This document shows positions 1,295-51,997 of a stretch of DNA of 64,000 bases, piece by piece; the first letter of the stretch is position 1, and every line of letters starts with the position of its first letter. The stretch lies in NCBI GenBank assembly GCA_001972305.1, contig BDDD01001479.1, positions 344,515 to 408,514 on the forward strand. Direction: 5' to 3'. Below the pieces are notes generated by a model, which was not told the DNA's origin, ran no database searches, and was given only the letters and a program-made list of their open reading frames with translations. The translations under genes and the position numbers were made by a program. This stretch comes from Cephalotus follicularis. Taxonomy: Eukaryota > Streptophyta > Magnoliopsida > Oxalidales > Cephalotaceae.

Positions 1295-4049
1295 GTATAT
1301 CTGTTTTACAGACTTTTATCTGTTTGTGTTTGGGCTTTTTAAATCGTTTTGTTATAAAGTCTGTTTGCCCTGTGTTTTGGGCCTATGTGTTTTGGGCTGA
1401 CTGATACCAGCCCGAACTTTTGGTTATGTTAGTATGTGGGAATGTTTATGTATGGGTTATGTTTATTATAATACTTTTATTCGAAACATAAATTATTTAT
1501 TAAAACAAAATCCTTATTTTATTACTTTTAAAATTCTATTTCCTTTTTCCATTATTTAAAAATCCCTTTATTTCCTTTTTCTTCCTCTTTTCTCTCCTTC
1601 TCCCGTAACTCTCTCTTTCTCCCTATCATCTCACACGGTTTCAATCCTATTTTCTATTCTTATCTCCTAAAAATCCTCTTGTTTCCTTATCTTTACTGAT
1701 TTGGTCTCCTATTCCCGTTTAGAGAGTGATATTACCATTGTTATATGTCATCCTCTCTCTGTTTGCAAAGCCACTGCCGAATTCTGCAATATAAGAGTTT
1801 GTTTTGTGTCCTTCGATTAGTCTCTGCATCAAGTTAGGTTTGTTTTGTAATCTCAATCCTTGTTGTTCAATTGGGTTATGTTTTTCTTTTGCTGGTTTTA
1901 AGGCTGTGTAATTGTTTTGCTTTCTCTCCTCTTCTGTTCCTGTTCGTAGCCAATTAACATTGTTTTGTGGTGTTTCTTCCTGTTGTTTCAGTGTCTGTTA
2001 AACCATTACAGGTTAGTAATCCTTGCTGTGATGGTTTGTTCCACATTGTTATTTTGTTTTATATTCATATAGGCTGCTAAGTTTTATTGGTTTTGGTTCC
2101 TGCATTTATATGTTCTGTCATCGCGTTCCTAAGTCTGTTAGCACCATGGATAAGTTGTAATCTGGTTTTAGCATCTGAATGTTGTTTTTGACAGTAAAAT
2201 TTGATTATAAAAGTTCAGGCATGTGTTTAGAAGCCACCATGTTTTTCCTTGAAAATAGCCACCGGTCATGGAATCATGTCAATTCTATGTTTTCCTATTC
2301 TCTAAATGCCATATTATGTCTTATGTATATGTTCATATGTCTCTGGTATAATGTTATACATGTTTGGACAGTTTCTGTATTGAAATTTCTTAGTTTTTGC
2401 TGTTCTATCGTCCAGAATAGTCGGCTGTTCTTATTGACAGTCGGCTGTCTAGCCTTGTGTAGTCGACTGTTTGTATGAATCAGTCGACTGCTTTGCTTTG
2501 CACAGTCGGCTGGACCACTGTCACAATCGATTGCATACAGTCTGGTTTGTGTAGTCGACTGGCCCTGATAATTAGTCGACTGCCAAGCTTCCTCAGTCGA
2601 CTGGTGCTCTGTAACAGTCGGCTGTTTTGCCCAGAAAATTCATGTTTTCAACTGTTTTGATCTATTTGTTTTTCGAATCGATCTGAGTCTGTCCAAAACA
2701 CTTTAATGAACCTATTTTATGTCTGTAATGATTCCGAGACCCTTATATGAATAGTTTTGTGTCTTTTAGATTGTTGTGCTACAAAGTGGAGTTTGACTTA
2801 ACAATCTTTTCGTAAATACTTTTGTGAACGCATAAGGTACAAATTTCTATTGTTCTTTGACCATATGGTTTTATCGAATGAAAATCAGTTTTGCTTTTAT
2901 TATATGATCTTCGTTTTATGAACTCGGTTATGTTTTTGAATTTGATATGTTCTGGAAAATATAGTCGGTTTTGACATTTTATGAATTTAATATTCCTGAC
3001 TTTATACGTATGTTGCGATATGAAACGATCATCTCTTTATATTGGGAAATAAATGAGTTGGTATTCGAAATATGAAATGTATCTCATGATATCGTTTGTG
3101 AACGATTTTTGAATATGTTTTGAAAAAGCTTATTTTATGTATTTCTAAATTGATTTTGATAAATCAATGAATTTGGAAATGATTAAATACTGAGTGTTTG
3201 TACCCACCTATGAGGCGTACCATAGGCATGTCATAGGCCTGGCACGGGGACATGACACTTCCGTAGCGGTGTGATTAGTCTACGGCGTCTCTCTATGTTG
3301 TGAATAAATCCCATGAGGTGGATTTATGTATCCACTATGTATGATAGAGGCGTATGAATCGATTCTAGTATATGGCATAAGTGATAAGATATGCAATGTG
3401 TGATATGATGTGATTTGAGAATTGACTTTTGTAGTGCCATAAACTTCAATTCTAATGGGCATGTGGAATTAGCACCTCCCTTTCCATATATGTTTCTGAT
3501 ATGTGATATGTTGTGTGGCTCAGTATGAAATTATGAAATTGTGATTTTGAAATGTTACGTATATGAAATTGGGTATTACGAAATGAACCTTTAAATGGTT
3601 TATTGCTTAAGAGTTATGTTACGAGTTTCATTGAAATCTTAGTTCTTTTAAATTACCATTTACTGTTTTACATTCTTTATTCGTAGTGAGGTTTGCTCAG
3701 CGTTTTGTTTTCCATGCGGCAGGTTATCAGGAGCAGCGGGGGAAAGTGTGAATGAGAGATGACCACCATTATGGATCATTAGGAGTGTGATCCTGTTATG
3801 TTTTCTGTTAGAGTTGGTCACGAACAATAAGTTACTTATGGTTTACGTTTTTAATAATTGACTATTGAAATATGTTAAATTTTCCGAATATGATAAGTTT
3901 TAAGTTTTGATCAGTTATATAATATGTTATGTTTTGACCGCCACGTTTTTAGCTAATAAAGTTATGCCTATGTTATGTTTAGTTAAGTCATGCTATGTTA
4001 TGATCTGTACTATGAACTGTGACGACTCTCGCCGTCCGGGGGTGTTACA
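1295..4049 (+). mobile_element. Element A 5' LTR (first ~19 bp displaced)
   Basis: Matches the 3' LTR at 21503-24249 along its length and ends in GGGGGTGTTACA. The first bases (TGTAATACCC) are missing because the family-I LTR sits at 1-1294. Contents in order: AT-rich stretch near 1460-1510 with TATA-like sequence, pyrimidine-rich block 1556-1640 typical of a transcription start region, a palindromic array at 2419-2624, a conserved block near 3205-3290 with GGCCTGGCACGGGGACATG, and a U5-like end. If the start region is right, the array lies in the transcribed leader. Confidence 0.85.
2419..2624 (+). repeat. 21-nt phased array of AGTCGACTG cores (A 5' LTR)
   Basis: Eleven core positions: AGTCGACTG or its variant AGTCGGCTG, with degenerate members AATCGATTG and AGTCTGGTT. 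Successive distances are about 20, 22, 21, 22, 21, 14, 14, 21, 21 and 21 nt. The 11-13 nt between cores differ from unit to unit and are T-rich. Each AGTCGACT is an exact palindrome, and AGTCGGCTG contains GCCGAC on the other strand. The arrays in the other A-family LTRs keep the same spacing, including the two short intervals. Confidence 0.9.
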
Positions 4050-4345: not shown

Positions 4346-5411
4346 TGTCACACCCCGTTTAAAGAGAAACGACATATATGCAGTAAAGGCAATTAACACA
4401 TAAATACAGCTCATGTAAAAACCATAAAATTGAAACTTTTAACAAGCTGTCATTTGCGGAAGCATAAAAAGAAAACCATAAGCTTTAAAAACCGTAGCGT
4501 GCATCCCATACTACACGCTACCCAAAACACCCAACATTGTTAATCGCCCACGAAACAGAGCGTGATCACAGTACAAGTTCAAATCCCACCAGTAAACAGG
4601 TCCATAAAACGTTACATCAGAATCCTTTAACAACTTAGTTTATTACAGGACATGAGAATGAGTAAAACTGAGAACAATACAATAACTTGTTCTTCGGCCA
4701 TGCTAGTCCGACCGGTCCACAGCATCAATCTCTAAAGCAGGGGGATAGCCTTTGTCCTCACTTGGCTAAGTCATAAAAGTAACTCGGGATCAACATGATG
4801 CATGTCATGATATGAATGCATGAATGATGCAGTGCAGTGGATCCCAGTTCTGTCCCGTTTCTTTTGCAGGAGCAGACGTTGAAGGTGGCACCATAGCCTG
4901 CATGCACACCCAAGTGTCATGCCCTTCCTCCCATTCTGGCACCTGCATGCCTGGTATCAAGTGAGAATGCGTAACACGTATCAATCATGTCCCAAGGCGC
5001 CTGAGAAAGGCTCTAAAAAGATTCCTCTTTGCACGTTTTTTGTCAGCAGAGTAACATGCTTGGCATTCGAAGTTAACACGTCAACGTCTTTCCAAAGACG
5101 TCGATGTCTTTCACCATTTTGCAAGAGGATGTTGATGTCTTCGTATGCATCGATATGCATGTGCATGTAGCTACGTGCGCCCTTTTGCCTCATGGATGTC
5201 GACGTGATTCCAAAGGCGTCGACGCGTTTCCCCAAGAACAGCTTTGTTTTAGCCTTTTTAACATTCTTTTAGCATATAACTCTAAAATTCAACATTATAG
5301 GAATTTTGGAAAAACATCACCAAATTCGGAAAGTCAATCATTTTATTAATTCCACAAATAAAGTACAAGTACATTTTGAAATTATATTACATGAAAATCT
5401 CGGGCGTTACA
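4346..5411 (-). mobile_element. Element B 3' LTR, internally deleted
   Basis: Same ends as the 2712-bp partner at 10117-12828 but only 1066 bp long. The sequence is colinear to about 4848 (partner about 10612), then jumps to partner position about 12262 and is colinear to the end. The lost part contains the distal GTCGAC array; the proximal one is kept at 5075-5227. Plus-strand right terminus is CGGGCGTTACA, followed by the complement of the polypurine tract. Confidence 0.9.
5075..5227 (-). repeat. Phased ACGTCGA(T/C)GT array (B 3' LTR, proximal)
   Basis: Cores such as ACGTCAACGTC, GACGTCGATGTC, GACGTCGACGTG and GGCGTCGACGCG recur at about 20-30 nt with unrelated spacers. It lies about 185-340 bp from the LTR 5' end on the minus strand. 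It matches 12494-12646 in the partner LTR. Confidence 0.85.
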
Positions 5412-5428
5412 TCCACCCCTCCTTCAAG
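5412..5428 (-). other. Polypurine tract of element B
   Basis: On the minus strand CTTGAAGGAGGGGTGGA lies immediately upstream of the 3' LTR, the expected position of the plus-strand primer for reverse transcription. Element D has nearly the same tract at 56442-56455. Confidence 0.85.
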
Positions 5429-5456
5429 GAATTTCGTCCTCGAAATTAAAACAAAT

Positions 5457-6791
5457 CTAAAACAAGTGCGGGTAGCGTTCTCGGATATCCTCCTCACGCT
5501 TACAAGTTGCTTCATCAGATCGATGGAACTGCCACTGAACCTTGACCATGGAGATGGTTCCGTTCCTCAAAATCTGCGTCTTCCGATCAAGAATCCTCAC
5601 AGGCAACTCTTTGCAAGATAGATCATCTTGCATCAGAACAGTATCATGATCCAGGACATGTGACGGGTCTGGGATATATTTCCTCAGCATAGATACATGG
5701 AAGACGTCGTGCACGTTCCATAGTGCGGGAGGTAAAGCAAGCTTCTAGGTGACCTCTCCGACTCTCTCCAAAATCTCGAAAGGACCAATGTAGCGAGGAG
5801 ATAATTTTCCCTTTCTCCCAAACCTTTGCACGCCCTTCCATGGTGAAACCTTCAAGAACACATGATCACCCACACTGAAGGTTAAAGGCCTTCTCTTGAC
5901 ACTGTCCGCATAGCTCTTCTGCCGGCTCTGAGCAGCAAGCAGCTTCTTTTTGATCGACCTGATCTTTTCTGAAGTTTCCTCCACTAATTCAGTCCCGAGT
6001 AAAGGTCACGCACCGACCTCATCCCAACAGATAGGAGATCGTCACTTCCTCCCATACAGTGCCTCAAAAGGTGCCATGCCGATACTGGAATGATAACTGT
6101 TATTGTAAGAGAACTCTATCAAAGGGATATGATCCTCCCAAGTACCAGCAAAATCAATAATGCAAGCCCGTAGCATATCCTCCAAGGTCTGGATGGTACG
6201 CTCAGATTTCCCATCTGTCTGCGGGTGGAAGGCAGTGCTCAGGTTCAGCTTCGTCCCAAAAGCTGTCTGAAATCTCTTCCAGAAGTTGGAAGTGAAGATG
6301 GCATCTCTATCACATACGATGCTGACTGGAACACCGTGCAGTCTCACTATCTCCTTTACATACAAACAAGCTAGCTTGCTCGCAGAATCGGTGACATGTG
6401 TAGGCAGAAAGTGTGCTTATTTGGTGAGTCTGTCCACGACAACCCACACGGCGTTGTGACGGTTCTGAGTCAGAGGAAAACCAGAAACAAAATCCATTGT
6501 AACATGTTCACACTTCCACTCTGGAATTGGCAATGGTTGTAGCAAACCTGCCAGTCTCTGGTGCTCGGCCTTAACTATCTGGCAAGTCAAACACCTTGCC
6601 ACATACTAGACGATCTCTCGTTTCATGCCAGGCCACCAGTAACACTTCTTCATGTCTTGATACATTTTAGTAATACCAGGATCAATACTGCACAGAGATT
6701 TATAAGCCCCGCGAAGTAGCTCATCCTTCAGTCTTGGTTCAATCGGAAGACACACACGTCCCTGATACCTCATAATACCATCAGCATGCAC
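5457..6791 (-). pseudogene. Element B integrase with chromodomain-like tail
   Basis: Pieces at 6606-6791, 6417-6602, 6042-6365, 5745-5984 and 5457-5714 form one integrase separated by stops or a frame slip. The CxxC of the N-terminal zinc finger is kept (CLTCQIVK), but both positions where chromovirus integrases carry histidine read Y and D (AYKS, SIDPG). The catalytic core shows D in MDFVSG, D in CDRDA and E in GKSERTIQ. The tail has HDVFHVSML and ends RERYPHLF, typical of Del/Tekay chromodomains. It is inactive because of the stops and the altered zinc finger. Confidence 0.85.
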
Positions 6792-7493
6792 TCAAAAATC
6801 AGACTCCGAATCCAGGTTCTCTCGGATCCGCTGCAATTCAAGATCATGTGGTTGTGCATCCCTGATGTGATCCATTAACACAGGCTGTAGTCTCATGTCG
6901 GCTAGAAAGATCCCCGGTGACTGATTAAACGGAGACCATTCTTTGAAGTCTTCCAGCATCTTCCATTGCGACACCATCGCATTGGCAAGCATAGCCTTGC
7001 GGCTCAAGGAATCAGCGACCACATTCGCTTTCCCCGGGTGGTACTGGGCACTGCAATCATAGTCATTAAAGAATTCCACCCACCTGCGCTGCCTCATGTT
7101 CAGTGTGTCCTGACAAAACAGGTACCTCAAGCTTTTATGATCGATAAAGATCTCAAACTGCACCCCATAAAGATAGTGCCTCCACTTCTGAAGAGCGAAG
7201 ACAATAGCTGCAAGCTCAAGGTCATGAGTCGGGTAGTTTTCTTCATACGGCTTTAGCTTCCTCGAGGCATATGCAATCACTCTGCCTCGCTGCATCAATA
7301 CACAACCCAAACCCTTACCTGATGCATCACTATAGACTGCAAAGCCTTCATTACCATCAGGTAACGCCAAGACAGGAGCGAAAACCAACCGATCCTTCAG
7401 TTCACAAAAACTAGCCTCACAGTCTTCGTCCCAGATAAAAGGAGTCTTCTTCTGGGTCAGTCTGGTCAAGGGCTCAGCTATCCGTGAAAATTT
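6792..7493 (-). pseudogene. Element B RNase H
   Basis: Ty3 RNase H directly downstream of RT. Visible motifs: [11 protein letters not shown] with the first catalytic Asp, [11 protein letters not shown] with the Glu, and IDHKSLRYL with the third Asp. The connection region with [15 protein letters not shown] follows. The frame is open from 7469 to 6792. It is separated from RT by a TAG near 7492 and ends in a stop before integrase. Confidence 0.88.
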
Positions 7494-8250
7494 CTAGATG
7501 AACCTCCTATAATATCCTGCCAAACCAAGGAAACTGCAGACCTCCGTCACATTCTTCGGTTGCGGCAAGTCTCGTACCACTTCAGTCTTTGACGGATCCA
7601 CCGTCAAGCCTTCTCCAGATACTATGTGACCGAGAAAGATCTCATGGTCAAGCCAGAACTCGCACTTGCCGAACTTAGCATACAACCGATGCTCTCTAAG
7701 AACTTGCAATACTAGCCTCAGATGATGAGCGTGCTCCTCCTCGCTCCTCGAATATACCAGTATGTCATCAATAAACACAATGAAAAACTGATCCAAGTAT
7801 GGTCGGAATATGTCATTCATCAATGACATGAAAGCTGCCGGTGCATTGGTAACACCAAACGGCATCACCAGGAACTCGTAATGACCATACCGTGTCCGGA
7901 AGGCAGTCTTCTCAATGTCTCCTTCCCTTACTCTCAGCTGGTGATAACCCGATCTCAAATTGAGCTTGGAAAACACCCTTGATCCTTGCAACTGATCAAA
8001 CAACTCCACAATGTGGGGTGAAGGATATTTATTCTTGATAGTTGCCTTGTTCAACATTCTGTAGTCGATGCATAGCCTCATCGACCCATCCTTCTTCTTG
8101 ACAAACAGTACAGCCGCACCCCACGGAGAAACACTGGGTCTAACAAAACCCTTATCAATCAGGTCTTATAACTGTAGCTTCAGCTCTCGCAACTCAGCAG
8201 GAGCCATCCGATAGGGTGATTTAGAGATAGGAGTCGTTCCAGGAACAAGA
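7494..8250 (-). pseudogene. Element B reverse transcriptase
   Basis: RT fingers and palm: the [12 protein letters not shown] motif, [25 protein letters not shown], and the catalytic FIDD box in [12 protein letters not shown] near 7762-7779, where the first residue is F as in most plant Ty3 elements. The thumb ends at [13 protein letters not shown] stop near 8165 interrupts the region just upstream of the fingers. The 195-residue open stretch covers most of the domain. Confidence 0.9.
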
Positions 8251-8499
8251 TCAATAATGAACTCCATACTCCTCTTCGGTGGTAAGGATCCCAAGTCATC
8301 AGGTAACACAACTGGAATTTCCACCAAACTCAAGCCTTTCTCCTTCCTACGATCAATCACATACGCCAGGTATCCCTCGCATCCCTTCTCCAGGTATCTT
8401 GATGCTCGAATAAAAGATATGATCGGTGTCAAGAACCCCTTGTCTCCCTTGACCTGAAAAGTCGTTCCATCGGGCAGGCAAAAATCCACAGTCTTATGG

Positions 8500-8865
8500 T
8501 AGCAATCCATACGAGCACGGTGTGCCGATAGCCAATCCATCACCAATATAACATCGAAATCACAGATGGGCAGCACAATCAAATTTGCATACAAAGGAAT
8601 GCCTGCCATAGACATCTCACAACTCCTATATACCGAGTCAGTATACATGGAAGTCTCAGTCGGTGTACTCACATCAAGTATGTATGACATGCAGTCAGGG
8701 GTGACATCTAAACAAGATGCAAAACGTTCAGATATAAAGGAATGTGATGCTCCAGAATCCATCAGTACCCTAGAAGAATAACCATATATATACAGAGTAC
8801 TTCCAACAACAGAAGTCGACTCTGGAACCTCTGTCTGAGCAAGTACAAAAATTCTACCTTTTGCG
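8500..8865 (-). pseudogene. Element B aspartic protease
   Basis: The active-site motif MDSGASHSF (near 8729-8763) sits in a retropepsin-like context, followed by DFDVILVMDWL, which plant Ty3 proteases share. It is in the same open frame as the second Gag zinc knuckle (8166-8996), so Gag and protease were translated as one polyprotein. The active-site triad reads DSG rather than DTG. Confidence 0.8.
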
Positions 8866-10007
8866 ATGCCCTTGCCGGTATCCCCCCTCTGTGACAGTCC
8901 CGCCGTCGCACCGCTGCTACTCCCCGGTCCAGTAGGCGCTGTAGTAGGACTCTTTGGACAGTCCTTCACTGAATGGCCAGGTGCCCCGCACCTCAAGCAC
9001 CAACCATTAAATCTCCAGCAGTCCTTCTGTTTGTGGCCTGTACGACCACAGTAAATGCATCCTCCAGATCTAGCATTACTCCCTCGGCTAGGAGTACCCT
9101 GTGAAGCTGTCTGTTGAGATTTGTTCTTCGACGACTTGGTCGGAGAACCACCATCTTGCCACTTTGACGATGCCGGTCGGGACTATGTAGGACGCTGTTT
9201 ACTCTCCTTTGTACGAGCTCATTCAGCCCGATCCTCACTGGATATCGTCTCCAACAATCTGGCTTTCTGAGCAACCTCCACAAAATTCCTCAGCTCTATA
9301 GCTCTAATCCTTGACTGAAGATCCGGTCGCAAACCTCTCAGGAATCTTCGTATCTTCTTTGCTTCATCAGCTACCAGATAAGGTGAATGTCTGGCCAGCT
9401 CCATGAACCTTGCTTGATACTCAGCCACAGTCATCTCACCCTGTCGCAACTCCAAGAGCTCAGTCTCTCATCGCTCTTGCTCAATATGCAGAACATAAGT
9501 CTCCAAGAACTCCATCTAGAATCTGTCCCAAGTACTTTCCAGTCTTTGTGTTTCCCATTTTGCCTTAACCATTTCCCACCAATGAGTGGCCTCACCCCAT
9601 AGGCGGTACACAGCAAATTTCAGTTTCTGGGCATCTGTACAGTCCATCACCTCAAAAATCTTCTCCAGGTCTTGCAGCCATCTCTCAGCAATCGTAGCAT
9701 CAAGTTCTCCCTTGAAGCTGGGTGGATTCAGCCTCATGAACTTCTCAATATCTCTTCCAAAATGGTTACCATCCTCTCCTGGGCAAAGGCCGGGAGCCCT
9801 ATTTTGCGGTCGAGCTTGCGCGTAATGCTGGCGCATCTCCTCCGCATTATCCCTGTTAAAGGCCATATGTTGCTGAAAGTAGTCCGCAATCCGAGCCATC
9901 GGGTCTCTGTAATTTTGGGGAATATCCATCCCTTGCAGAACATTTGTTTCTTCAGGGGCATTAGCTTCAGCAGCTCTAGCCCTAGCTCGAGTTCTCCTTC
10001 GGTCCAT
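8866..10007 (-). pseudogene. Element B Gag (capsid-nucleocapsid)
   Basis: Starts at the ATG at 10007 (MDRRRTRARAR), 94 nt inside the primer site. The retrotransposon Gag domain is recognisable by AERWLQDLEKIF, WGEATHWWEMV and the later ARLLETISSEDRAE segment. Two adjacent CCHC zinc knuckles (CIYCGRTGHKQKDC and CLRCGAPGHSVKDC, about 8960-9065) bind genomic RNA in such proteins. Stops occur near 9515, 9467 and 9217. Element D Gag starts almost identically, so B and D are close relatives. Confidence 0.87.
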
Positions 10008-10100
10008 TGTTCCTATAAGAAGGATGACAGTCAGTCACGACTTAAGGAAATAATTCATTAATTGCCAAGGAAAGTATCCTAGCTAAGCATATATGGAATA

Positions 10101-10113
10101 TGCTCTAATACCA
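10101..10113 (-). other. Primer-binding site of element B
   Basis: The minus strand reads TGGTATTAGAGCA 3 nt inside the 5' LTR. It matches the initiator-tRNA-Met complement with one C-to-T change relative to TGGTATCAGAGC. Confidence 0.85.
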
Positions 10114-11407
10114 CTCTGTCACACCCCGTTTAAAGAGAAACGACATATAAGCAGTAAAGGCAATTAACACATAAATACAGCTCATGTAAAAACCATAAAA
10201 TTTAAACTTTTCACAAGCTGTCATTTGCGGAAGAATAAAAAGAAAACCATAAGCTGTAAAAACCGTAGCGTGAATCCCATACTACATGCTACCCAAAACA
10301 CCCAACATTGTTAATCGCCCACGAAACGGAGCGTGATCACAGTACAAGTTCAAATCCCACCAGTAAACATGTCCATAAAACGTTACATCAGAATCCTTTA
10401 ACAACTTAGTTTATTATAGGACATGAGAATGAGTAAAACTGAGAACAATACAATAACTTGTTCTTCGGCCATGCTAGTCCGACAGGTCCACAGCATCAAT
10501 CTGTAAAGCAGGGGGTTAGCCTTTGTCCTCACTTGGCTAAGTCATAAAAGTAACTCGGGATCAACATGATGCATGTCATGATATGAATGCATGAATGATG
10601 CAGTGCAGTGGAGACCCTAGTTTATATATATATGAAAATATATACGTATAACAGTACAGTAAAATATCAGTGGGCATAGATATATGTGTGAAATATATGT
10701 ATGCAACAATAGTAGTAACCCGGCCAGGGCTACATCAACAAGAACAGTAATGTACAAGAAGGACCAACAGGCAGTACAAGATGTCTGCATAGGACCACAA
10801 CAACAGGCAGTATGTGTAACGCCGCTAACTCCTAGCCCCACGCTACACTCCCACTCCGGTCCCTGCTCCAGGAAACCGAGCGAGGAAACAGTACAGTGAG
10901 TTACCCAGCCATACTCCTGGCCCCTAGGTCAACCCTACCACTAGCCGGCGCTGGCAGCCTCCGCCATGCAACTAGTGGCTCAAGCACAAACACATAACAA
11001 TTCGCAGAGCAAACAGTGAATTCAAACAGTAACAGTACAGTAAACAGGACAGTAGTGATCGTTTAGATCCACAACAGGCAGGTTATTTCCAAAATGTTTC
11101 AAAAGTGATAACATTTGAAATATTGCATTTTCAGTAGAAAATACTTTTAAACAGTTTCAGTCATGGAAATCGCTTTCCAAAGATGCTTGAAAATACGATA
11201 TCGATATTCGTTTGTACTCAAAATAGCAGTTTCAATTGACATATGCATTTCTAAAGTAACAACACATTAGAAATCATAATTCGAGTACAAACAGTACAAA
11301 CAGGCAGTAAAACAGTGTATGTGCAATGCATACAAATGGTCAAATACACTCTAACAGGAATCGGGATCGTTTCGTATCGTTAGATAAAGAAATCCCCAAA
11401 CAGTTTC

Positions 11408-11740
11408 AAAGACGTCGATGTCCATTAAAAGGCGTCGATGTCTTTTCCTGTAGACGTCGATGTCCAAGTCCTTAGAGTCAACGTGTTCTACTGCAGGAGG
11501 CGTCGATGTCCATTTCATACGCCTCGATGCTCAAGGTCTGGAACCTTAGAACGACATCATATTGTTCACGGCGTTGACGCGTTAAGGTGGAAACCTTAGG
11601 CGTCGACGTGTGACACATCAAAACCTAAACAGATAGCCTAAGGCGTCGATGTCTTTCTATAGACGTCGATCCATTTCACATCAGTAACCAGGCAAAACCC
11701 AAAAGACGTCGACGTTCATCAAAAGGCGTCGATCTTTATC
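11408..11740 (-). repeat. Phased GACGTCGATGTC array (B 5' LTR, distal)
   Basis: At least twelve cores of the form (G/A)(G/A)CGTCGA(T/C)(G)TC, the first five at about 22-24 nt spacing and later ones more irregular. Variants such as AGTCAACGTG and GCGTTGACGC look like CpG-to-TpG/CpA changes of the same core. It lies about 1.09-1.42 kb from the LTR 5' end. It is absent from the deleted partner LTR. Confidence 0.87.
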
Positions 11741-12493
11741 GAGTAACAGTCGTCTTCTTCCTCACGACTTAACAAACAATAGGCATTACAACCCATATTC
11801 ATGCACAATAACAGGGAACCAAGGCAGGAAACCAACATGCAGATACTCATTACATATCTAGCATATCATGGTATCAATCCAGTGACAAAATCAATTCAAT
11901 AAGCATGCATTTCATACACCAAAACCATAGACCATGCATTGATATCAATCTCAAGATTTCAGTTATGGCTTCTCCTACCTTTTGTCCCAAGTTAGGAACT
12001 GGAAAGTCCACCTCTTTTTATTCCAAACTGGTCACAGCAGCCTCTAGGTCCTTCCCGTTGCTGCAAGTCACCAGCTCCAAGCTCAAAGCTCAACAATGGT
12101 GGAAATGTTTTCTTTCCTTAACTCTCTATTTTCTTACACAGGTGTCTCAGCCGAACCAGGGATGAAGAGAGGAGGCGTTTTATGCAGGTCGAACATCTCT
12201 CTTCCCTCTCTGGCCCATTGCATGCATCTCACAGTTCCATTTTCCCATTTTCTCTCTTTCCCAGTTATGTCCCATTTCTTTTGCAGGAGCAGACGTTGAA
12301 GGTGGTACCACAGCCTGCATGCACACCCAAGTGTCATGCCCTTCCTCCCATTCTGGCACCTACATGCCTGGTATCAAGCCAGCATGCGCAGCACGTATCA
12401 ATCATGCCCCAAGGTTCCTGAGAAAGGCTCTAAAAAGATTCCTCTTTGCACGTTGTTTGTCAGCAGAGTAACATGCCTGGAATTTGAAGTTAA

Positions 12494-12646
12494 CACATCG
12501 ATGTCTTTCCAAAGACGTCGATGTCTTTCACCATTTTACACGAGGACGTCGATGTCTTCGTATGCATCGATGTGCATATGCATGCAGCTATGTGCGCCCT
12601 TTTGCCTCAAGGACGTCGACGTGATTCCAAAGGCGTCGACATGCTT
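12494..12646 (-). repeat. Phased GACGTCGATGTC array (B 5' LTR, proximal)
   Basis: About seven cores (ACATCGATGTC, GACGTCGATGTC, GACGTCGACGTG, GGCGTCGACATG and others), 180-335 bp from the LTR 5' end. The spacers share no obvious sequence. Confidence 0.85.
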
Positions 12647-12828
12647 CCCCCAGAACAACGTCGTTTTAGCCTTTTTAACATTCTTTTAGCATATAACTCT
12701 AAAATTCAACATTATAGGAATTTTGGAAAAACATCACTAAATTCAGAAAGTCCATCATTTTATTAATTCCAAAAATAAAGTACAAGTACATTATGAAATT
12801 ACATTACATGAAAATCTCGGGGATTACA

Positions 12829-16570: not shown

Positions 16571-16689
16571 TGTTGACGATTAAGTCTCAATCCTTGTTTT
16601 GATGATAACATATTTGCATCTAACTAAGTTACTTGATGTGCAAGGAATTACAAGTTGAATATCAAAGTCTAAAGCCATCTGCAGAAAAA

Positions 16690-17316
16690 GAAGTCGACTC
16701 CTTTATAAATAGCATCGACGCCTTTTGTACAGAATGAACTGCGAAGAAAACATCTACCTCCCAGTTATTGGCATCGACGTCCGTACAAAAAGAAGTCGAC
16801 TACTTCCAGAAGACGTCGACCACATTCAAGAAGACATCGACTACTTCAGGGAAAACATCGACGCGTTTAGTCATTTTATGGACCAGAAGCTACTGTATGA
16901 AAATGCACTCAAAGACATCGATCCTCAACCAAAAGACATCGACGTCCAAGTAAAAGACATCGACGCCTTTCAATAGAGATCGACGCCATTTTCATAATTC
17001 CCAGAAAAAGCATCGACTCCAAGGAAGAGATCGACGTGACACTCAAACCCTCTGCACCTGGAGATTTCCCAGAAAAGACATCGACGTCTTTCAAAAAGAA
17101 GTCGACGCCTTTTCAAATAGACAACACCCGGGAAAGCTGGAACGGCTAGTTTAACCACTTATAACGGCTACCAAATAAAAGACATCGACTCCTTTATAAA
17201 GAAGTCGACGCCTTTTCAAGTGAACAAGAACCGGGAAAGCTGGAACGGCTAGTTTAACCACCATAACGGCTATCAACTAAAAGACATCGACCCCTTTCAG
17301 AAAGAAGTCGACGTCT
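16690..17316 (+). repeat. TCGAC-core array in copia solo LTR
   Basis: More than twenty cores of AA(G/C)(T/A)TCGAC(G/T) type (AAGTCGAC, ACATCGACG, ACGTCGAC). Many lie 21 nt apart, most regularly at 16790-16870 and 16910-16975. Because 21 is divisible by 3, one frame translates to heptads of the KDID/EDID type (16725-16976). I regard this ORF as a by-product of the repeat. The position upstream of the TATA box places the array in U3. Confidence 0.88.
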
Positions 17317-17332
17317 TTGTACCAGCAGAGAT
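17128..17332 (+). repeat. Tandem duplication of about 103 bp in copia LTR
   Basis: GGAAAGCTGGAACGGCTAGT followed by TTAACCAC occurs at 17131 and again at 17234, with GACATCGAC and AAGTCGACG cores between, so whole array segments have been duplicated. Confidence 0.8.
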
Positions 17333-17409
17333 AAATTCAACAAATGCAACTCACATTCTTTAATCAAAAGCTTCCACAAATTAAGCAACGGCTATAAACC
17401 TTTTCAAGC

Positions 17410-17416
17410 TATAAAA
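17410..17416 (+). promoter_or_regulatory. TATA box of the copia solo LTR
   Basis: TATAAAA in the context AGCTATAAAAGGAAGC, the best TATA box in the window. Transcription would start about 30 nt downstream (near 17442), placing the whole palindromic array in the upstream promoter region (U3). Confidence 0.65.
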
Positions 17417-17954
17417 GGAAGCATGAAACCTCAGAAGATGTACAACCAAGAACTACTACAATTCAGAATCATCTACATCAATCACACAACATCAAGAGAA
17501 ATCCAATTCAAGCTATCTAGTGTGCAAAAACTCAAAGTGCTCTACATTGTTCAACAAAGCTTCTAAGCTTCTTTCTTTGAGTGTATCTGAGTGTTTCATT
17601 TTGTGAGCTATATTTATTCACATCAACCTATTCAAGAGGTTATTGTAAACACTTTTCATATTACTTGTAAAAGAGGAGAATCCTCTAAGGCTTTGAGGTC
17701 AAAGTCTTGTGATTGAGGTCAATCACGAAATTGTGAGGGGGAACGATTTGCTGCCTTAATCAAATCGAGTTAGTGGAAACTCAAGGAGCTCCCTTGGGAA
17801 AAGTGGACGTAGGCAAGAGTTAGCCGAACCACTCTAAATATCGGAGAAATTTTTCTTTCCTTGTCTATTTACATTTAAAGTTTTTAAATTTCCGCATATT
17901 CCTCAATATTCAATTCACCCCCCCTCTTGTATATTGCAAGAGTGTTTTATTTCA

Positions 17955-18065: not shown

Positions 18066-20871
18066 TGTAATACCCTGGTTGTTCGTGTGTATGTTTTACA
18101 GACTTTTAACCTTTTTTTGGGGGGATTTTAATTCTGTGTTGTTATGAAGTCCGTTTGCCCTATGATTGGGCCTTTGTGTTTTGGGCTGACTGATACAAGC
18201 CTGAACTTTGGATATGTTTGTATGTTAATGCATGGTTATGGGTTGTGCCTATGTCTATGTCCTATTAATTATCAAGTTTTATTATAAATTCTATTTTTTT
18301 TTTTCTATTTTGAAAATTATTAAAACAATTTCTTTAATTTTCTTTAATTCTTATTTATTCTTTTCTTTTCTTTTTCCTTTTTCTTTCTTTCCTTTTTTCT
18401 TCCCTCTCTTTCCTTCTCTCACCCGAATTCTTCTTCTTCTCCCTATCTTCTCACACGGTTTTTTTTTTTATTTCTTTTCCATTCTTATCTCCTGAAAATC
18501 CTCTCTTCTACTTTATCAATCAGGTTATGTCTCCTATTTCTATTTAAAGAGTGACATTATCATTGTTACATGTTATATCAGTTCTCTATGCAAAGTCACT
18601 GCCGAATCCTGCAGTATTGAAGTCTGTCTTGGTTCTTGAGGAGTTGTTTCATCAGATTGATAGAGGTAATCTGTCTTTTGTTGTCCTCTTGGTTATGTTT
18701 TCGTTGGCAGGCTTTGAGTTGTGTATTTGTTTTCTCTTCTCTTTTGTCTCTTTGCACAGTCGGTTAACAATTGTTGTGTGTTGTTATCTCTGCTATTTTC
18801 AGTGTCGCTAATACCATTGCAGGTTAGTAATATTTGCTGTGATGGTTACTTCCACATGGTTATAAGTTGGTTTTGTTGTTAATGTCTCATAGTTTTGATT
18901 TCTGCCCATATATGTTATGTCATAGAATTCCTAAGCTCGTCGGCATGTTTTAGACATCATAGACTTCTTGTAATTTGGTTTTAATCTCTATAAAAGGTAA
19001 TGGACAGAAAATTGGACTTATATGTACGCATATGTTCAAAGGTTCTTTCTTTCTTTCTTTGGAAGTTAAGTAACTGTTTATGTATTCTATGTCAATTTTG
19101 TGTTTTTGTGTCATCTAAACATCATACAATGTCTTGGGTATATGTCCATATGTCTCTGGTATTGTGTTAGTTGAGTTTGAACAATTTCCACATTGAAATT
19201 TCTAAGTTTATAGTGTTATGTCGTCCAGAATAGTCGACTGTTCTCATAGACAGTCGGCTGGTTTGGTTGAGCAGTCGGTTGTTTTATGAACATAGTCGAC
19301 TGTTTTGTGTTGAGTAGTCAACTGGACCCCTATCACAATCTACTGCTTGCAGTCCCGTTTGTGTACTCGACTGGCCTTGTTGCATAGTCAGCTGCCAAGC
19401 TTCCAATTGTAGACTGAAGCTCTGTAATAGTCAGCTGTTTTGCTCAAAAAATTCCTGTTTTCAACTGTCTTGATTCGTTTGATTTATGAATCAATCTGTT
19501 CTTTCCTAAACACTATAACGAATCTGTTTTATGTCTCTAATGATTCTCAGACCCTTATATGCATGGTTTTGTGTCTTTTAGATTCGTGTGCTTCAAAGGA
19601 GAGTTGAATTAACAATCTTTTCATGAGTCTTTTCTATAACCGCATAAGGTACGGATATTCTGCTCTTTGGCCATCTGGTTTTATGAACGAAAATCAGTTT
19701 ACTCCTGTGATATGTTCTTTCAGTGTTATGACTCGGTTATGCTTTATGGTTTGGATATGTTTCAAAAATAAAGTTGGTTTTGACATTTTGTGAATTTAAA
19801 TGTTCCTGACTTTATTCTTATGCTGTGATACGTTATGATATGTTATATGTTACGATCATCTCATTTATGGTGATAACTAAATGGGTTGATGCTTTGTTAT
19901 GAAAAGTATGCAATGATATCGTTTGTTAACGATTTTACAACATATTTCGAAAAAGCATATTTTACGTGTTATTAAATTGATTCTGATAAATTCATGCTGC
20001 CGAAATGATAAAATACTGAGTAGTTGTACCCACCTATGGGGCGTACCATAGGCATGTCGTAGGCCTGGCACAGGGACATGACACTTGTGTAGCGGTTTGA
20101 TTAGACTACGGCGTCTCTCTGTGTTATGAATAAATCCCATGAGGTGGATTTATGGATCCGTTATGTATGATTGAGGCGTATGAATCGATTCTAGTTTATG
20201 GCGTACGTGTGGAGTTATAAAATATGTGATATGATGTGAAATGAGAATTGACTTGTGTAGTGCCGTATACATCAATTCTAGTGGGCATGTGGAATTAGCA
20301 CCTTCGTTGCCATCTATATGTTGTGGATACATGATATGTTATGTGGCTCAATATGTGTGTGTGTTTATGAAATTTATGTTTCGTATATGTTTCAAAAGTT
20401 ATGGTTTTAACTGTTTTGTTGCTTAAGATTTCTGCTATGAGGTTTACTAAAATCTTTCTACTTTTAAGTTACCGTTTACTGTTTTACCTTCTTTATTCGT
20501 ACTGAGGTTTGCTCACCCGCGTTTTTGTTTCCATGCGGCAAGTAACCATGTGTAACAGGGGTAAGTGTGATTTGAGAGATGACCACCATATGTCCAGCAT
20601 CCTCTAGGAGTGTGATCCCTTTTATGTTTTCTTTTAGGATTGGCTATGAACCATAAGTTATTTTGGTTTATGTTTTCAGAACTTGACCTTGGAATATGTT
20701 TAAGTTTTTAAGTTTTTGATCAGTTTTCAGATATGCTATGTTATGACTGCAACATTTTTAGCTAATGAAGTTATGCTTATGTTCAGTATGATATACTAAG
20801 TTAAGATATGTTATGCTTAAGTTATGTTAAGTTATGACCTGTGACGACTCCCGCCGTCCGGGGGTGTTACA
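18066..20871 (+). mobile_element. A-family solo LTR inside A integrase
   Basis: 2806 bp, TGTAATACCC ... GGGGGTGTTACA, homologous along its length to both A LTRs but clearly more diverged from them than they are from each other. Flanks are TCCAA (18061-18065) and TCCGA (20872-20876), a duplication with one later change. No internal region is left, so an unequal LTR-LTR exchange removed it. It is an insertion of a related subfamily into A itself. Confidence 0.9.
19232..19437 (+). repeat. 21-nt phased AGTCGACTG array (A-like solo LTR)
   Basis: Eleven positions colinear with 2419-2624, including the two short 14-nt steps, but with more changes: AGTCGGTTG, AGTCAACTG, AGTCAGCTG (twice), ACTCGACTG. 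Most changes are C-to-T or G-to-A at the CpG. Spacing is better kept than core sequence. Confidence 0.88.
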
Positions 20872-21502: not shown

Positions 21503-24249
21503 TGTAATACCCTGGTTATTCGTATATGTGTTTTACGGACTTTTATCTGTTTGTGTTAGGGCTTTTTAAATAGTTTTGTTATAAAGTCCGTTTGCCCTGT
21601 GTTTTGGGCTGACTAATACAACCCGAACTTTTGGTTATGTTAGTATGTTGGAAGGTTTATGTATGGGTTATGTTTATTATAATTCTTTTATACAAAACTT
21701 AAATTATTTATTAAAACAAAATCCATATTTTATTACTTTTAAAATTCTATTTCCCTTTTCCTTTATTTAAAAATCCCTTTATTTCCTTTTTCTTCCTCTT
21801 TTATCTCCTTCTCCCGTAACTCTTTCTTTCTCTCTATCATCTCACACAATTTCAATCCTGTTTTCCGTTCTGATCTCCTTAAAACCTCTTGTTTCCTTAT
21901 CTTTACTTATTTGGTCTCCTATTTCCGTTTAGAGAGTGATATTACCATTGTTATATGTCATCCTCTCTCTCTTTGTAAAGCCACTGCCGAATTCTGCAAT
22001 ATAAGAGTTTGTTTTGGGTCCTTTGATCAGTCTCTGCATCAAATCATGTTTGTTTTGTAATGTCAATCCTTGTTGTTCAATTGAGTTATGTTTTTCTTTT
22101 GCTGGTTTTAAGGCTGTGTGATTGTTTTGCTTTCTCTCCTCTTCTGTTTCTGTTCGCAGCCAATTAACATTGTTTTGTGGTGTTTCTTCATGCTGTTTCA
22201 GTGTCTGTTAAACCATTACAGGTTAGTAATCCTTGCTGTGATGGTTTTTTCCATATTGTTATTTGGTTTTATATGCATATAGGCTTCTAAGTTTTACTGG
22301 TTTTGGTTCTTTCATTTATATGTTATGTCATTGTGTTCCTGAGTCTGTTAGCACCATGAATAAGTTGTAATCTGGTCTTAGCAACTGAATGTGGTTTTTG
22401 ACAGTAAAATTTGATTATAAAAGTGTAGGCATGTGTTTAGATGTCACCTTGTTGTTCCTTGAAAATAGCCACTAGTCATAGAATCATGTCAATTCTGTGT
22501 TTTCCTATTGTCTAAATGCCATATAATGTCTTATGTATATATTCATATGTCTCTGGTATAATGTTATACATGTTTGGACAGTTTTTGCATTGAAATTTCT
22601 AAGTTTCTGTTGTTTTGTCGTCCAGAACTGTCGGCTGTTCTTATTGACAGTCGGCTGTCTAGCCTTGTGTAGTCGGCTATTTGTATGAACCAGTCGACTG
22701 CTTTGCTTTGCACAGTTCGCTGGACCTCTATCACAGTCGACTGCTTACAGTCTGGTTTGTGTAGTCGACTAGCCCTGATGATTAGTCAACTTCCAAGCTT
22801 CCTCAGTCAACTGGTGCTCTCTAATAGTCGGCTGTTTTGGCAAGAAATTTCTTGTTTTCAACTGTTTTGATCCGTTTGTTCTTCGAATCGACCCGAGTCT
22901 GTCCCAAACACTGTAATGAACCTGTTTTATGTCTTTAATGATTCTCAGACCCTTATATGAATAGTTTTGTGTCTTTTAGATTGTTGTGCTACAAAGGGGA
23001 GTTTGACTTAACAATCTTTCGTAAGTACTTTTGTGAACGCATAAGGTACGGATTTCTATCATTCTTTGGCCATCTGGTTTTATCGAATGAAAATCAGTTT
23101 TGCTTTTATGATATGAACTTCGAATTATGAACTCGGTTATGTTTATGAATTTGATATGTTCTGAAAAATAAAGTCGGTTTTGACATTTTATGAATTTAAT
23201 ATTCCTGACTTTATACGTATGTTGCGATATGAAATGATAATCTCTTTATAGTGGAAAATAACTGAGTTGATATTCCAAATATGAAATGTATGTTATGTTA
23301 TCGTTTGTGAACAATTTTCGAATATGTTTTGAAAAAGCATATTTTATGTATTTCTAAATTGATTTAATTTGAGAAATGATTAAATACTGAGTATTTGAAC
23401 CCACTTATAGGGGGTACCATAGGCATGTCGTAGGCCTGGCACGGGGACATGACACTTCCGTAGCGGTGTGATTAGTCTACGGCGTCTCTCTATGTTATGA
23501 ATAAATCTCATGAGATGGATTTATGAATTTTCTATGTATAATAGAGGCGTATGAATCAATTCTAGTATATGTCATATGTGATAAGATATGCAATGTGTGA
23601 TATGATATGATATAGGAATTGACTTGTGTAGTGCCGTACACTTCAATTCTAATGGGCATGTGGAATTAGCACCTCCCTTTCCATATATGTTTATGATATG
23701 TGATATGTTATGTGGCTCTGTATGATATTATAAAATTGCGATTTTGAAATGTTCCGTATATGAAATTGGGTATTACGAAATGAACGTTTAAATGGTTTAT
23801 TGCTTAAGATTTCTGTTACGAGTTTTATTGAAGTCTTACTGCTTTTCAATTACCGTTTACTATTTTATATTCTATATTCGTACTGAAGTTTCCTCAGCCG
23901 TGTTTTGTTTTCCATGTGGCAGGTTATCAGGAGCAGCGGGGGAAAGCGTGAATTTGAGATGACCACCATTATGGATCCTTAGGAGTGTGATCCTGTTATG
24001 TTTTCTATTAGAGTTGGTCATAAATAGTAAGTTACTTATGGTTTACGTTTTTAATAATTGACTATTGAAATATGTTAAGTTTTCCGAATATGATAAATTT
24101 TAAGTTTTGATCAGTTATAGAATATGTTATGTTTTGACCGTCACGTTTTTAGCTAATAAAGTTATGCCTATGTTATGTTCAATTAAGTTATGCTATGTTA
24201 TGATCTGTATGATGACCCGTGACAACTCCCGCCGTTCGGGGGTGTTACA
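21503..24249 (+). mobile_element. Element A 3' LTR (complete)
   Basis: 2747 bp, TGTAATACCC ... GGGGGTGTTACA. Close to the 5' LTR (roughly 93-95% by eye; not computed). Same internal order: AT-rich and pyrimidine-rich block, array at 22629-22834, conserved GGCCTGGCACGGGGACATG block near 23433, U5-like end. Confidence 0.92.
22629..22834 (+). repeat. 21-nt phased AGTCGACTG array (A 3' LTR)
   Basis: Eleven positions colinear with the 5' LTR array. Compared with it, several cores have changed at the CpG (AGTCAACTT, AGTCAACTG) or elsewhere (AGTTCGCTG), and the sixth is AGTCGACTG where the 5' copy has AATCGATTG. Confidence 0.9.
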
Positions 24250-32651: not shown

Positions 32652-32840
32652 GACATTGACGTATAAGACACAGGTGTCGACGTGTACGACATAAGCGTTG
32701 ATGCTTAAGCAAGGTGTCAAAAAAAAAACAAAGGATAAAGCGTCAACAAAACATGATAGTTTACGATGAAAGCGTCGACGCTCAAACAAAGCTTCGACGT
32801 TTAAGACATAAGCGTCGACAAAAAACGAAAACAATCAACG
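32652..32840 (-). repeat. GCGTCGACG array, left segment (LTR G)
   Basis: Cores such as ACATTGACGT, GTGTCGACGTG, GCGTTGATGC, GCGTCGACGC and GCTTCGACG recur at roughly 20-25 nt. The array is interrupted by LTR H and continues at 36397-36460 (TGTCGACGC, CATCGACAC, GCGTCAATG). Confidence 0.8.
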
Positions 32841-33930: not shown

Positions 33931-34137
33931 ACAAGCACTGCCTGCCCAGGAGAGAATCCATGCACAACTGCCCACTACAGAGTACCAGAACATCCACAGA
34001 ACAACAGCCCATTCCACGGATATCAAACCATCCACAGATGCCAACCCATTCCCAGCACCAGACCAGGTAGCCCGAGGAGATTCACGCCCAAGAAGGCATC
34101 TTCAACAAAATACCAGAGAAGCCACTTCGCTCAGTCA

Positions 34138-34715
34138 ACGCCCGAGGAGACCACCACACAAGCAATGCCTGGGGAGACCACCACACCAGCAATGACCGAG
34201 GAGACCATCACACACCAGCAATGCCCGAGAAGACCACCACACAAGCAATACCCGAGAAGACCACCACACAAGCAATGCCCGAGGAGTCCACCACACAAGC
34301 AATGCCCGGGGAGACCACCACACCAGCAATGCCCGAGGAGACCATCACACACCAGCAATGTCCGAGGAGACCACCACACCAGCAATGCCCGAGGAGTCCA
34401 CCATACCAGCAATGCTTGAGAAGACCATCACACAAGCAATGCTCGGGGAGACCATCACACCAGCAATGCCCAAGAAGACCATCACACAAGCAATGCCCAA
34501 GGAGACCATCACACAAGCAATGCATGGGGAGACCACCACACTAGCAATGCCCAGGGAGACCATCACACTAGCAATGCCCGGCAAGACCACCACGCCAGCA
34601 ATGCTCGAGGAGACCACCACACCAGCAACGCCCAAGGAGACCACCACACCAGCAATGCTTGAGGTGACCACCGTACACCAGTAATGCCCGAGAAGACCAC
34701 CACACAAGCAATGCC
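34138..34715. repeat. 27-bp minisatellite, about 21 copies, in LTR H
   Basis: The consensus reads GCCCGAGGAGACCACCACAC followed by MAGCAAT. I count 21 consecutive units, mostly 27 bp with a few of 29 bp (CACACACC). Being a multiple of three, the array is open over long stretches in several frames on both strands (9-residue repeats such as MPEETTTPA). There is no start context, no conservation of frame across the 29-bp units and no domain, so I do not call a gene. Confidence 0.92.
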
Positions 34716-35089
34716 CATGCACAAGGAGATGACAACGTTTAACATAAGCTAAGCCTGGGATCAACACAAGGGCCCGGGGACAAATGCCAAGCATGGGACA
34801 ACTACACGAGGTCCCTCCAACACTCAACTTACTCTCAGGAGATGAAATCTCACCTCGGCCCAGTACCCAAGGGATCAACCAGGGCTCACCCGACAAAACA
34901 TCTTCAGGGACGGAGCTGGTCTAAGGTCAGGGGGATGGGCAAAACTAAGGAAAACTTCTTACTCCCACACTTCCATAGCCGGAACCACCTCGGCAAGCAC
35001 AAATAACAACTCCATTGAAGATCCATCAACATGGTCATGGGCTACAGGACTGTACACATCCCTCATATACGCATATACATACCCACTTC

Positions 35090-39560: not shown

Positions 39561-39885
39561 TGTGCCATAGGCTGCGTGCAATTTATGCACCAACAGTGCT
39601 CCTACTTGTGCATTCAGTGAGATCTCAATATATATATGTATGTATACATAAGTGATTGATATGATGGCTATGTATAAGAAAGGAATATATTAATAGAGAA
39701 AGGTTATAAGTGCAGTGATAAGTGCAATGAATTATATATGATAAGTGCAGTGTAATACAGTGTGATAAAGGATAGGCTAGTGAAGGCAAACGTCACAGTG
39801 AAATGTTAACGTAGTGTTATTGTACAATTAATCTATTGAAATGTAGTGTTAATGTAGTGTCAATGTACTGTACTGTAATGATTGG

Positions 39886-39985
39886 ATCACCGACCAAGAT
39901 GAGCCCTAAGGGGACCACAGACTGAGCTGAGCCAATGGATCACCGACCGACCTGAGCCACTGGATCACCGACAGAGTTGAGCCAC
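39886..39985 (+). repeat. GATCACCGACC tandem units (I2)
   Basis: About four imperfect units of 25-27 bp matching the array at 346-528. Confidence 0.8.
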
Positions 39986-46684: not shown

Positions 46685-47446
46685 AAATTGTCACACCCGT
46701 TCTCGACAACAACCGATATCCTACCGAGAACGGATAAGACATTCCACATGACAACTTTCTTTCGGAAGTCACCACATGGTTTTTATAAAACTCACTTTAA
46801 ACTTGAAAATCAAGAAGTTAAACATTTCCAAAACTTTGAATATTTTTCTAACTCTTAAATTTTTACGAAAATCGGGCATGTAGTATCCATTTATCGAACT
46901 ATGCCCCTGTAAAGAAAAACACAATTTATATCCACACTCCCAAAGGAGGAACCAGAAAATTATAAATGCGCCCAGCCCTTAGCAAACCACAATATTAAAG
47001 TAGTAAACATGGGTTGGGCTCTGCCTCAACAATAATACCAAGAATGAAGCATAAATATACAAGGCTTGGCCCTTTTTAAATAAAAACCATAAGATAAAAC
47101 ATTTATATAAAAACATAAGTAAATGCGTAATTTAAATGATGATGTAGTTATGCTATGCATGTGTTGAAACCCTTGTAGCATGCCCTGCCTTCGTGGTCCA
47201 TCATCTACTGCAATAGACTTAGCAATTGCTTATGATCTTGCCTTTATCTGGGAGGGGAAAGAAGAAGGAGGGGCTTAGTCCAAATGACTAAGTGTAACGC
47301 CCGGGATTTTTTGTCAAATGTAATATTGTAAATACCAATGTAAATTATGCATTAAGTTAATGAGAATTATGGATTTTTGCATCGTGTAATGTTAAGGCTT
47401 GAATGAAGAGGTTTAAGGAAAGTTGTGGTGTGAAGAAATAGGGGAG

Positions 47447-47568
47447 CAACCAACTGTAGGGAGAAATAGTTGACTTGAGCCTTAACAGAACCAGCTGACT
47501 GTTAAGAGAAATAGCCGACTGGACTATCAGCAGAAGCAGTCGACTGTTGTGGGAAGGCAGTCGACTGC
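47447..47568 (+). repeat. Phased AGTCGACTG array (D 5' LTR, proximal)
   Basis: Cores AACCAACTG, AGTTGACTT, AGCTGACTG, AGCCGACTG, AGTCGACTG and AGTCGACTG at about 20-25 nt, 155-275 bp from the LTR start and upstream of the TATA-like sequence. Confidence 0.85.
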
Positions 47569-50864: not shown

Positions 50865-50876
50865 TGGTATCAGAGC
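50865..50876 (+). other. Primer-binding site of element D
   Basis: TGGTATCAGAGC, 4 nt after the LTR end. It is the canonical initiator-tRNA-Met primer complement of plant LTR elements. Confidence 0.95.
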
Positions 50877-51829: not shown

Positions 51830-51997
51830 TTTCATGTAACGCCCGGAAATTAAATTTCATGTATTATTGTAATCCTCGATGTAGTTTTTACCTTGAATTA
51901 ATAAAAGGTGAATTTCCTGGTTGATATCTTGAATTTAAATTAACTTAGAGCATTTAGAAGTGTGATTCTAAGTATAATTGTGGGAATTTTGGCTTGG

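Follow-up and report, generated by a model that had tools for sequence, protein, structure and literature searches.

A 64,000-nucleotide stretch of the Cephalotus follicularis genome (GenBank assembly GCA_001972305.1, contig BDDD01001479.1, positions 344,515 to 408,514 of the forward strand; called the window here and numbered from its first letter) is a nest of plant long terminal repeat (LTR) retrotransposons. Their LTRs carry arrays in which a short palindrome, GTCGAC, recurs about every 21 nucleotides (nt) between spacers that are nearly free to vary. Such arrays are present in LTRs of both the Ty1/copia and the Ty3/gypsy superfamilies. We consider it probable that they are enhancer (cis-regulatory) modules of the retrotransposons, read by a sequence-specific factor of the host. 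Each unit would be a putative binding site of approximately 10–18 bp with GTCGAC, or more broadly RYCGAC, at its center. As approximately 21 bp corresponds to two helical turns between most neighboring sites, several factor molecules could share one face of the DNA, and they would act jointly on the LTR promoter to activate transcription. The likeliest class of factor would be AP2/ERF of the CBF/DREB type.

The reference for enrichment was a set of 60 dinucleotide shuffles, made within 500-bp blocks of the window. Strict GTCGAC occurs 47 times, compared to a shuffled mean of 5.7 and a maximum of 14. When one transition was allowed, there were 163 cores (shuffled mean 63.2) and 48 pairs at a distance of 20–22 nt (mean 0.15, maximum 3). 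Strict cores alone formed 11 such pairs, and not one of the 60 shuffles produced any. The observation, first made in a preceding sequence-only reading, is confirmed. To guard against post hoc choice of the motif, all 6-mers were scanned blindly at distances of 15–61 nt, counting only pairs with flanks less than 60% identical. GTCGAC at 21 nt ranked first with 11 pairs; the next palindromic 6-mer had 4 pairs, and 10 of the 24 next listed words overlap GTCGAC. Fifteen arrays, which cover 3525 bases or 5.5% of the window, contain 39 of the 47 strict cores, and the 8 cores outside them are approximately the number expected by chance. The sequence-only reading had listed 14 places with cores at 20–22 nt. 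GTCGAC-type cores were found at all 14 and gaps of 20–22 nt at 13, the remaining place (61105–61262) having only a 19-nt gap. The places are real but not independent: they derive from about six LTR families, of which they are copies or segments, and three pairs of them (11408–11740 with 12494–12646, 51998–52155 with 52980–53215, and 47447–47568 with 48930–49176) each share one LTR. The list also missed the largest array, which has 19 cores at 16693–17312.

Spacing and identity were analyzed on a set of 10 representative arrays from seven LTR families, with one copy per array. Gaps of 20–22 nt make up 44 of the 76. A period of 10.5 bp is seen in the 29 gaps exceeding 23 nt (R=0.41; p=0.006 when that period is fixed), and a scan of periods gave the best fit near 10.45 bp (p=0.028). 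The idea that the sites face one side of the helix gains modest support from these long gaps.

The units fall into two classes. Arrays A, B, C, and D repeat CAGTCGACTG, with the variants GCCGAC or GTCGGC. Arrays E, F, and S repeat AAAGACRTCGACGYCTTT; in arrays G, H, and I the box is shorter and resembles AGCGTCGACGCT. Identity between units is 0.71–0.91 in the core, whereas the outer ten positions reach only 0.30–0.49 in nine of the ten arrays, compared to a composition background of 0.26–0.29. The units were picked by core match, which weighs against taking the core figure at face value: it is high partly by construction, but the low spacer identity is not. That the spacers are free, as the earlier reading had it, describes the CAGTCGACTG arrays well. 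It is only partly true of E, F, and S, where the palindrome extends into the spacer, to about 18 bp; in S the core identity is 0.91 and the outer identity 0.59.

The cores vary in a restricted manner. One-step variants of GTCGAC in the 10 arrays comprise 45 transitions (5.1 expected) and 4 transversions (10.8 expected). The wider consensus of the C-repeat/dehydration-responsive element (CRT/DRE) is RYCGAC, and 38 of the 49 one-step variants keep this reading on one of their strands; 7 represent CpG decay at the center. Together with 30 copies of GTCGAC, these 38 variants give the arrays a CRT/DRE core. The asymmetric variants tend to run in one direction: ATCGAC and GTCGAT occur 12 and 0 times in S and 7 and 0 times in F, GTCGGC and GCCGAC 4 and 0 times in A1, and GCCGAC and GTCGGC 4 and 1 times in D. 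The exceptions are H1 and I, with 2 and 1 and with 1 and 1 copies of ATCGAC and GTCGAT, respectively.

The arrays are distributed over several host elements. Element X (approximately 1295–24249) is bounded by an LTR at approximately 1295–4049 on the left and one at 21503–24249 on the right, which are approximately 92% identical outside the array. The left, 5′ LTR holds array A1 (2420–2622, plus strand, 10 CAGTCGACTG-type cores) and the right, 3′ LTR array A3 (22630–22832, plus). Nested in X on the minus strand is the Ty3/gypsy element E (4346–12828), with the target duplication AATGG on both sides. Its 5′ LTR (12828–10117) carries a first array, E2 (12497–12640, minus), and a second array, F (11414–11733, minus, 11 cores); its 3′ LTR (5411–4346) carries E1 (5080–5223, minus). 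The 3′ LTR is without 1646 bp of the 5′ LTR (10613–12258, corresponding to position 4842), including the whole second array, and the F region that is missing is collinear with the LTRs K and CD. Two solo LTRs on the plus strand also lie inside X. One is the Ty1/copia Sirevirus-like LTR S (16571–17954, ACTGG target duplication on both sides), with array S (16693–17312, plus) and a unit consensus of AAAAGACATCGACGCCTTTC. The other is at 18066–20871, with flanks TCCAA/TCCGA, and contains array A2 (19233–19435, plus).

Element K, on the plus strand, has a 5′ LTR at 47293–50860, an exact primer site at 50865, and a 3′ LTR from 56456. The first arrays are B2 (47469–47565, plus) in the 5′ LTR and B1 (56611–56727, plus) in the 3′ LTR, and the second arrays are H2 (48932–49173, plus, AGCGTCGACGCT type) and H1 (58098–58339, plus), respectively. 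The solo LTR CD (51835–54363, plus), flanked by the target duplication TTTCA, sits inside K with C (52001–52126, plus) as its first array and D (52987–53198, plus) as its second; D is made of GTCGAC and GCCGAC cores and one GTCGGC. Families E, K, and CD thus have two arrays per LTR. Array G (32655–32839, minus) belongs to the LTR at 32883–31036 on the minus strand, and the weak array I (61109–61254, minus; four cores with gaps of 70, 51, and 19) to a minus-strand LTR starting at 61399. The LTRs CD, G, and I are known from their ends and from short similarity blocks.

Element E shows zinc knuckle, protease, reverse transcriptase, RNase H, and integrase zinc-binding/SH3 pieces in the Ty3/gypsy order, and its integrase-core open reading frame had no Pfam match. 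Pfam domains RVP_2 and SH3_Tf2-1 were found in X and Retrotrans_gag in K. A protein search with the gag open reading frame gave no match at E≤0.001 among 40 candidates. Elements E, K, and X may resemble the Tekay/Del chromoviruses, in which a chromodomain comes after the integrase; Pfam Chromo was absent from the six open reading frames searched, and SH3_Tf2-1 follows the integrase in E and X. By these domains, and for CD, G, and I by LTR ends and short blocks, the hosts of arrays A to I are not Ty1/copia Sireviruses. All arrays other than S appear to sit in Ty3/gypsy-type LTRs, a placement that for CD, G, and I rests on the same ends and blocks.

In the Sirevirus-like LTR, array S is immediately upstream of the TATA box CTATAAAAGG (17409–17418, plus), with approximately 97 bp between them. 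The first arrays of E, K, and CD lie approximately 0.15–0.35 kb from the LTR start and the second arrays approximately 1.1–1.9 kb. Arrays G (approximately 50–230) and I (approximately 150–290) are also near the start, and array A is at 1126–1328 of its LTR. A conserved block of approximately 47 nt, GAGGTGGACT..CTAAYTTG..AG/GTAGGRG, is conserved ahead of the second array in each of E, CD, and K. It is found at 52580–52632 (plus; 52580–52626 for the part common to the three LTRs) before D, at a distance of approximately 360 bp and ending AAAG/GTAGGGG, at 12025–11979 (minus) before F, and at 57766–57812 before H1. The three LTRs otherwise align only in short blocks. The end of this leader block looks like a splice donor, so the second array possibly lies in a leader intron. 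These LTRs would then have one array near their start, in U3, and another downstream in an apparent leader intron.

Copies of the same LTR family allow the change in cores and spacers to be compared. Between A1 and A2, whose LTRs are approximately 74% identical, transversions affect 4 of 100 core positions and 21 of 118 spacer positions (p=0.0013); in the rest of the LTR they amount to approximately 12% (cores versus rest, p=0.011). The comparison of A3 with A2, which is not independent of the former, gave 7 of 100 and 21 of 118 (p=0.024). This reads as constraint on the cores while family A was active.

Several observations weigh against the enhancer reading or limit it. The difference in transversions comes from family A: pair B shows the opposite (3/60 core and 0/72 spacer positions), and there is little contrast in A1–A3 (3.0% versus 3.4%), E (0/60 versus 2/97), or H (1.1% versus 3.0%). 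Transitions are more frequent in cores than in spacers between A1 and A3 (10/100 versus 3/119) and in E (9/60 versus 5/97), and the LTR pair of K behaves likewise, with identities of 0.85–0.86 in the cores and 0.93–0.96 in the spacers. Later CpG decay of methylated copies may account for this excess. ATCGAC alone makes up 24 of the 38 RYCGAC variants and is derivable by CpG decay of ACGTCGAC. Because deamination also yields transitions, the RYCGAC pattern fits a CRT/DRE site but is no proof of binding specificity. Symmetry of single units beyond the array consensus was not significant in a covariation test (p=0.068), and binding by a dimer is thus not established. As to the helical face, periods of 20–21 fit the long gaps nearly as well (R 0.37–0.39), gaps of 25 and 28–29 nt (9 of 76) are off the 10.5-bp phasing, and all p values are uncorrected for multiple tests. 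The best TATA candidate in A (offset 912–925) precedes the array, which speaks against a simple rule that arrays are always upstream. The second arrays are probably transcribed.

The sequence-only reading had left the choice between a tandem protein-binding platform and a structured RNA. The platform is the better supported of the two, by the spacing, the near-free spacers, the RYCGAC-type variation, and the occurrence in both superfamilies. An RNA role, of the kind proposed for Sirevirus LTRs in maize, would be that transcripts of the palindrome clusters form long hairpins and are diced to 21–22-nt small RNAs, with the arrays as a target of silencing or a cost of regulation. We regard this as unlikely, although the folds are more stable than those of shuffled sequences (z of −8.0 for A1, −5.1 for D, −2.9 for part of S, and −4.2 for H1). 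When the 10-bp cores were fixed and only the spacers shuffled, eight of nine arrays were still below the mean, F the most (z −2.51, with 2% of shuffles as stable), and in F and S shuffling the spacers cost nearly as much as shuffling the cores. However, z in this control ranged from +0.45 to −2.51 over the nine arrays with a mean of about −1.1, and no clear contribution of the spacers is seen in A1, C, and D (−0.47, −0.40, and +0.45). The effect in E, F, and S is partly explicable because their palindromes exceed the fixed cores. The control removes the excess stability in A1, C, and D but leaves some of it in F and S, and we rejected RNA structure as the sole cause. In A1 and D the stability is due to the cores. 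We take RNA structure to be mainly a by-product, with a possible real contribution. Nor is the strand consistent, the stabler one being sense in A, G, and H and antisense in C, D, E, F, and S, and the one-way asymmetric core variants weaken pairing. Small RNAs of maize Sireviruses map in excess to palindrome clusters (PMC10760457, PMC5311732, in the text available from both); in the same portion of PMC10760457, palindromic structure was found in Copia LTRs, and maize Ty3 elements generally show no obvious peak. A further RNA function, dimerization or packaging, in which two genomic RNAs would be joined through palindromes of the 5′ leader, in the manner of retroviral dimer initiation sites, seems very improbable. 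Palindromes can pair between molecules, and the second arrays, as well as A, lie in the probably transcribed leader. The first arrays, which lie close to where the LTR begins, and S, which precedes its TATA box, would be outside the 5′ leader, the stability is without sense-strand bias, and no Rfam family reached the gathering score in the window.

At the level of DNA, the arrays could be ordinary minisatellites grown by slippage or unequal exchange, the core being kept by recent copying. Part of S does have this character: it is a 103-bp tandem duplication with 88% matches, in which TRF finds 20–21-bp repeats, and variants can be common to neighboring units. In nine of the ten arrays the spacers are near background identity while core identity is high, so copying of whole units is largely contradicted; the same core also occurs in LTRs that are alignable only in short blocks, and its transversions are depleted between A1 and A2. 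We consider the minisatellite origin improbable for the arrays as a class. Slightly less credible again is a methylation platform, in which the clustered CG sites (plus CAG/CTG in the CAGTCGACTG class) attract methyl-binding or silencing proteins and no activator is involved. The observed/expected ratio of CpG is high in E2, F, G, H1, I, and S (1.37–2.18, compared to 0.66 in the window), and the excess of core transitions between LTR pairs agrees with methylation. The ratio is only 0.49–0.88 in the CAGTCGACTG arrays A1, B2, C, and D, however, and a CpG platform needs neither the fixed GTC..GAC letters nor the 21-bp spacing. Methylation may simply reflect silencing of an enhancer by the host.

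On the sense strand, alignment among the LTRs of E, K, and CD is confined to short blocks, the longest being 243 bp at 67%; A aligns with G in four such blocks and I with K in one. S aligns with E only within the arrays, at best 88% over 52 bp. The unit consensus is nearly the same in the copia-type S (AAAAGACATCGACGCCTTTC) and in the gypsy arrays E and F (GAAAGACATCGACGCCTTTG). One K LTR holds both unit classes, B and H, which indicates that the flanks turn over while the GTCGAC center persists. It is possible, though we hold it only tentatively, that the module is portable: Ty1/copia and Ty3/gypsy elements of one plant would independently carry or exchange a phased RYCGAC array, the likeness of S to E and F arising by convergence on one host factor or by transfer of the module, with the 21-bp helical phase enforcing cooperative binding.

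If the enhancer reading is correct, a single kind of enhancer, recognized by one class of host factor, has come to be shared by plant LTR elements of the two superfamilies, through convergence or exchange. This would explain co-activation of unrelated elements, for example under cold or drought. RYCGAC at 21 bp would be a sequence handle to predict the elements that respond and the genes next to them. The account of Sirevirus palindromes and their connection with silencing would also come to include Ty3/gypsy elements.

Other repeats were noted in passing. The LTR family J (starts at 1294 and 40712, minus) has a 25-bp minisatellite with ACCGAC at 353–526 and 39883–39984, and several units of the first copy also carry GCCGAC, the DRE core. 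A 27-bp tandem repeat, CAATGCCCGAGGAGACCACCACACCAG, is present in approximately 21 copies at 34136–34716, partly within an open frame. Outside plants, no plant LTR was recognized in the repeat runs, as distinct from the surrounding genes, of 23 bacterial stretches matching a three-unit pattern and 4 stretches of a viral collection matching a two-unit pattern. Four bacterial contigs (L012:6312–6676, L002:5046–5347, L001:6017–6192, and L010:3438–3613) contain runs in which as many as 18 AGTCGACT boxes follow one another every 21 nt exactly, a core and spacing that follow by construction because the runs were picked by the search pattern; the spacers vary in L012 and L002. Of the 23 bacterial matches, 14 are titled Treponema, Tannerella, Prevotellaceae, or Spirochaetaceae metagenome-assembled genomes.

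Tnt1-type elements have repeated, partly palindromic activators in U3, consisting of two or three boxes of other sequences, and are not known to carry long arrays phased at 21 bp. PMC2829016 mentions such tandem boxes in passing. The Sirevirus motifs described in that paper (Bousios et al. 2010) are closer to the arrays described here, and the statement of the sequence-only reading that no named system matches them does not hold. According to its available text, Sireviruses carry repeated-motif (RM) boxes, short CpG-rich palindromes in 8–32 copies per element, of which 3–14 are in the 3′ LTR. The LTRs that contain them differ in the rest of their sequence, and most boxes are found in the upper half of the LTR, before a conserved TATA box. 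The Vitis box has the core CGGTCGACCG, which contains GTCGAC, and the Tnd-1 box is ACAATCGATTGT. The authors suggested a regulatory role and stress-type sites, and presented the boxes as specific to Sireviruses and absent from the classic elements compared. They also describe a polyC-rich signal, approximately 19 bp in length, whose mean distance from the LTR end is 21 bp.

Array S resembles RM boxes in most of these features. Its palindromic box is present in 19 copies (RM boxes have at least 8), at approximately 123–742 of the 1384-bp LTR and thus in the upper half, with CTATAAAAGG at approximately 839, and CCCCCCC at 1348 of 1384 corresponds to the polyC-rich signal near the 3′ end. As a solo LTR, S has no internal region in which the coding region, primer-binding site (PBS), and multiple polypurine tracts (PPTs) of a Sirevirus could be sought. 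It differs in lacking the CGG–CCG signature, the core being RTCGAC; the available text gives Tnd-1 as an exception to that signature. The signature is missing from the unit consensuses of all arrays here. The maize LTR palindromes of a 2016 study, as described in PMC10760457 and PMC5311732, likewise cluster in the cis-regulatory part of the LTR and are able to form hairpins, but their motif is CACCGGACNNNGTCCGGTG.

GTCGAC itself is listed as the PLACE element CRTDREHVCBF2, the preferred site of HvCBF2 (PMC4222965), and DREB sites have been associated with plant LTRs (PMC11656987), as far as the available portions of these papers go; the GTCGAC in the corresponding part of PMC5893645 refers to cloning sites. 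The core and the commonest variants of the arrays (GTCGAC, ATCGAC, and GCCGAC) fit the CRT/DRE consensus as sequences, and the CRT/DRE definition, unlike these arrays, leaves out long phased runs. Among the titles and abstract openings listed, at most 20 papers to a list and mostly outside the subscription literature, none described GTCGAC arrays with a 21-bp phase from Ty3/gypsy LTRs of plants, and the 21-bp phasing seen here does not appear in the available text on RM boxes. Palindromic box arrays in Sirevirus LTRs are thus already known, and array S is of that kind save for the CGG–CCG signature. Unlike RM boxes, the arrays of the window are mostly found in LTRs of Ty3/gypsy type, and three families have a second one; what is new is this setting, the doubled arrays, the 21-bp phase, and a motif common to the gypsy LTRs and a copia LTR.

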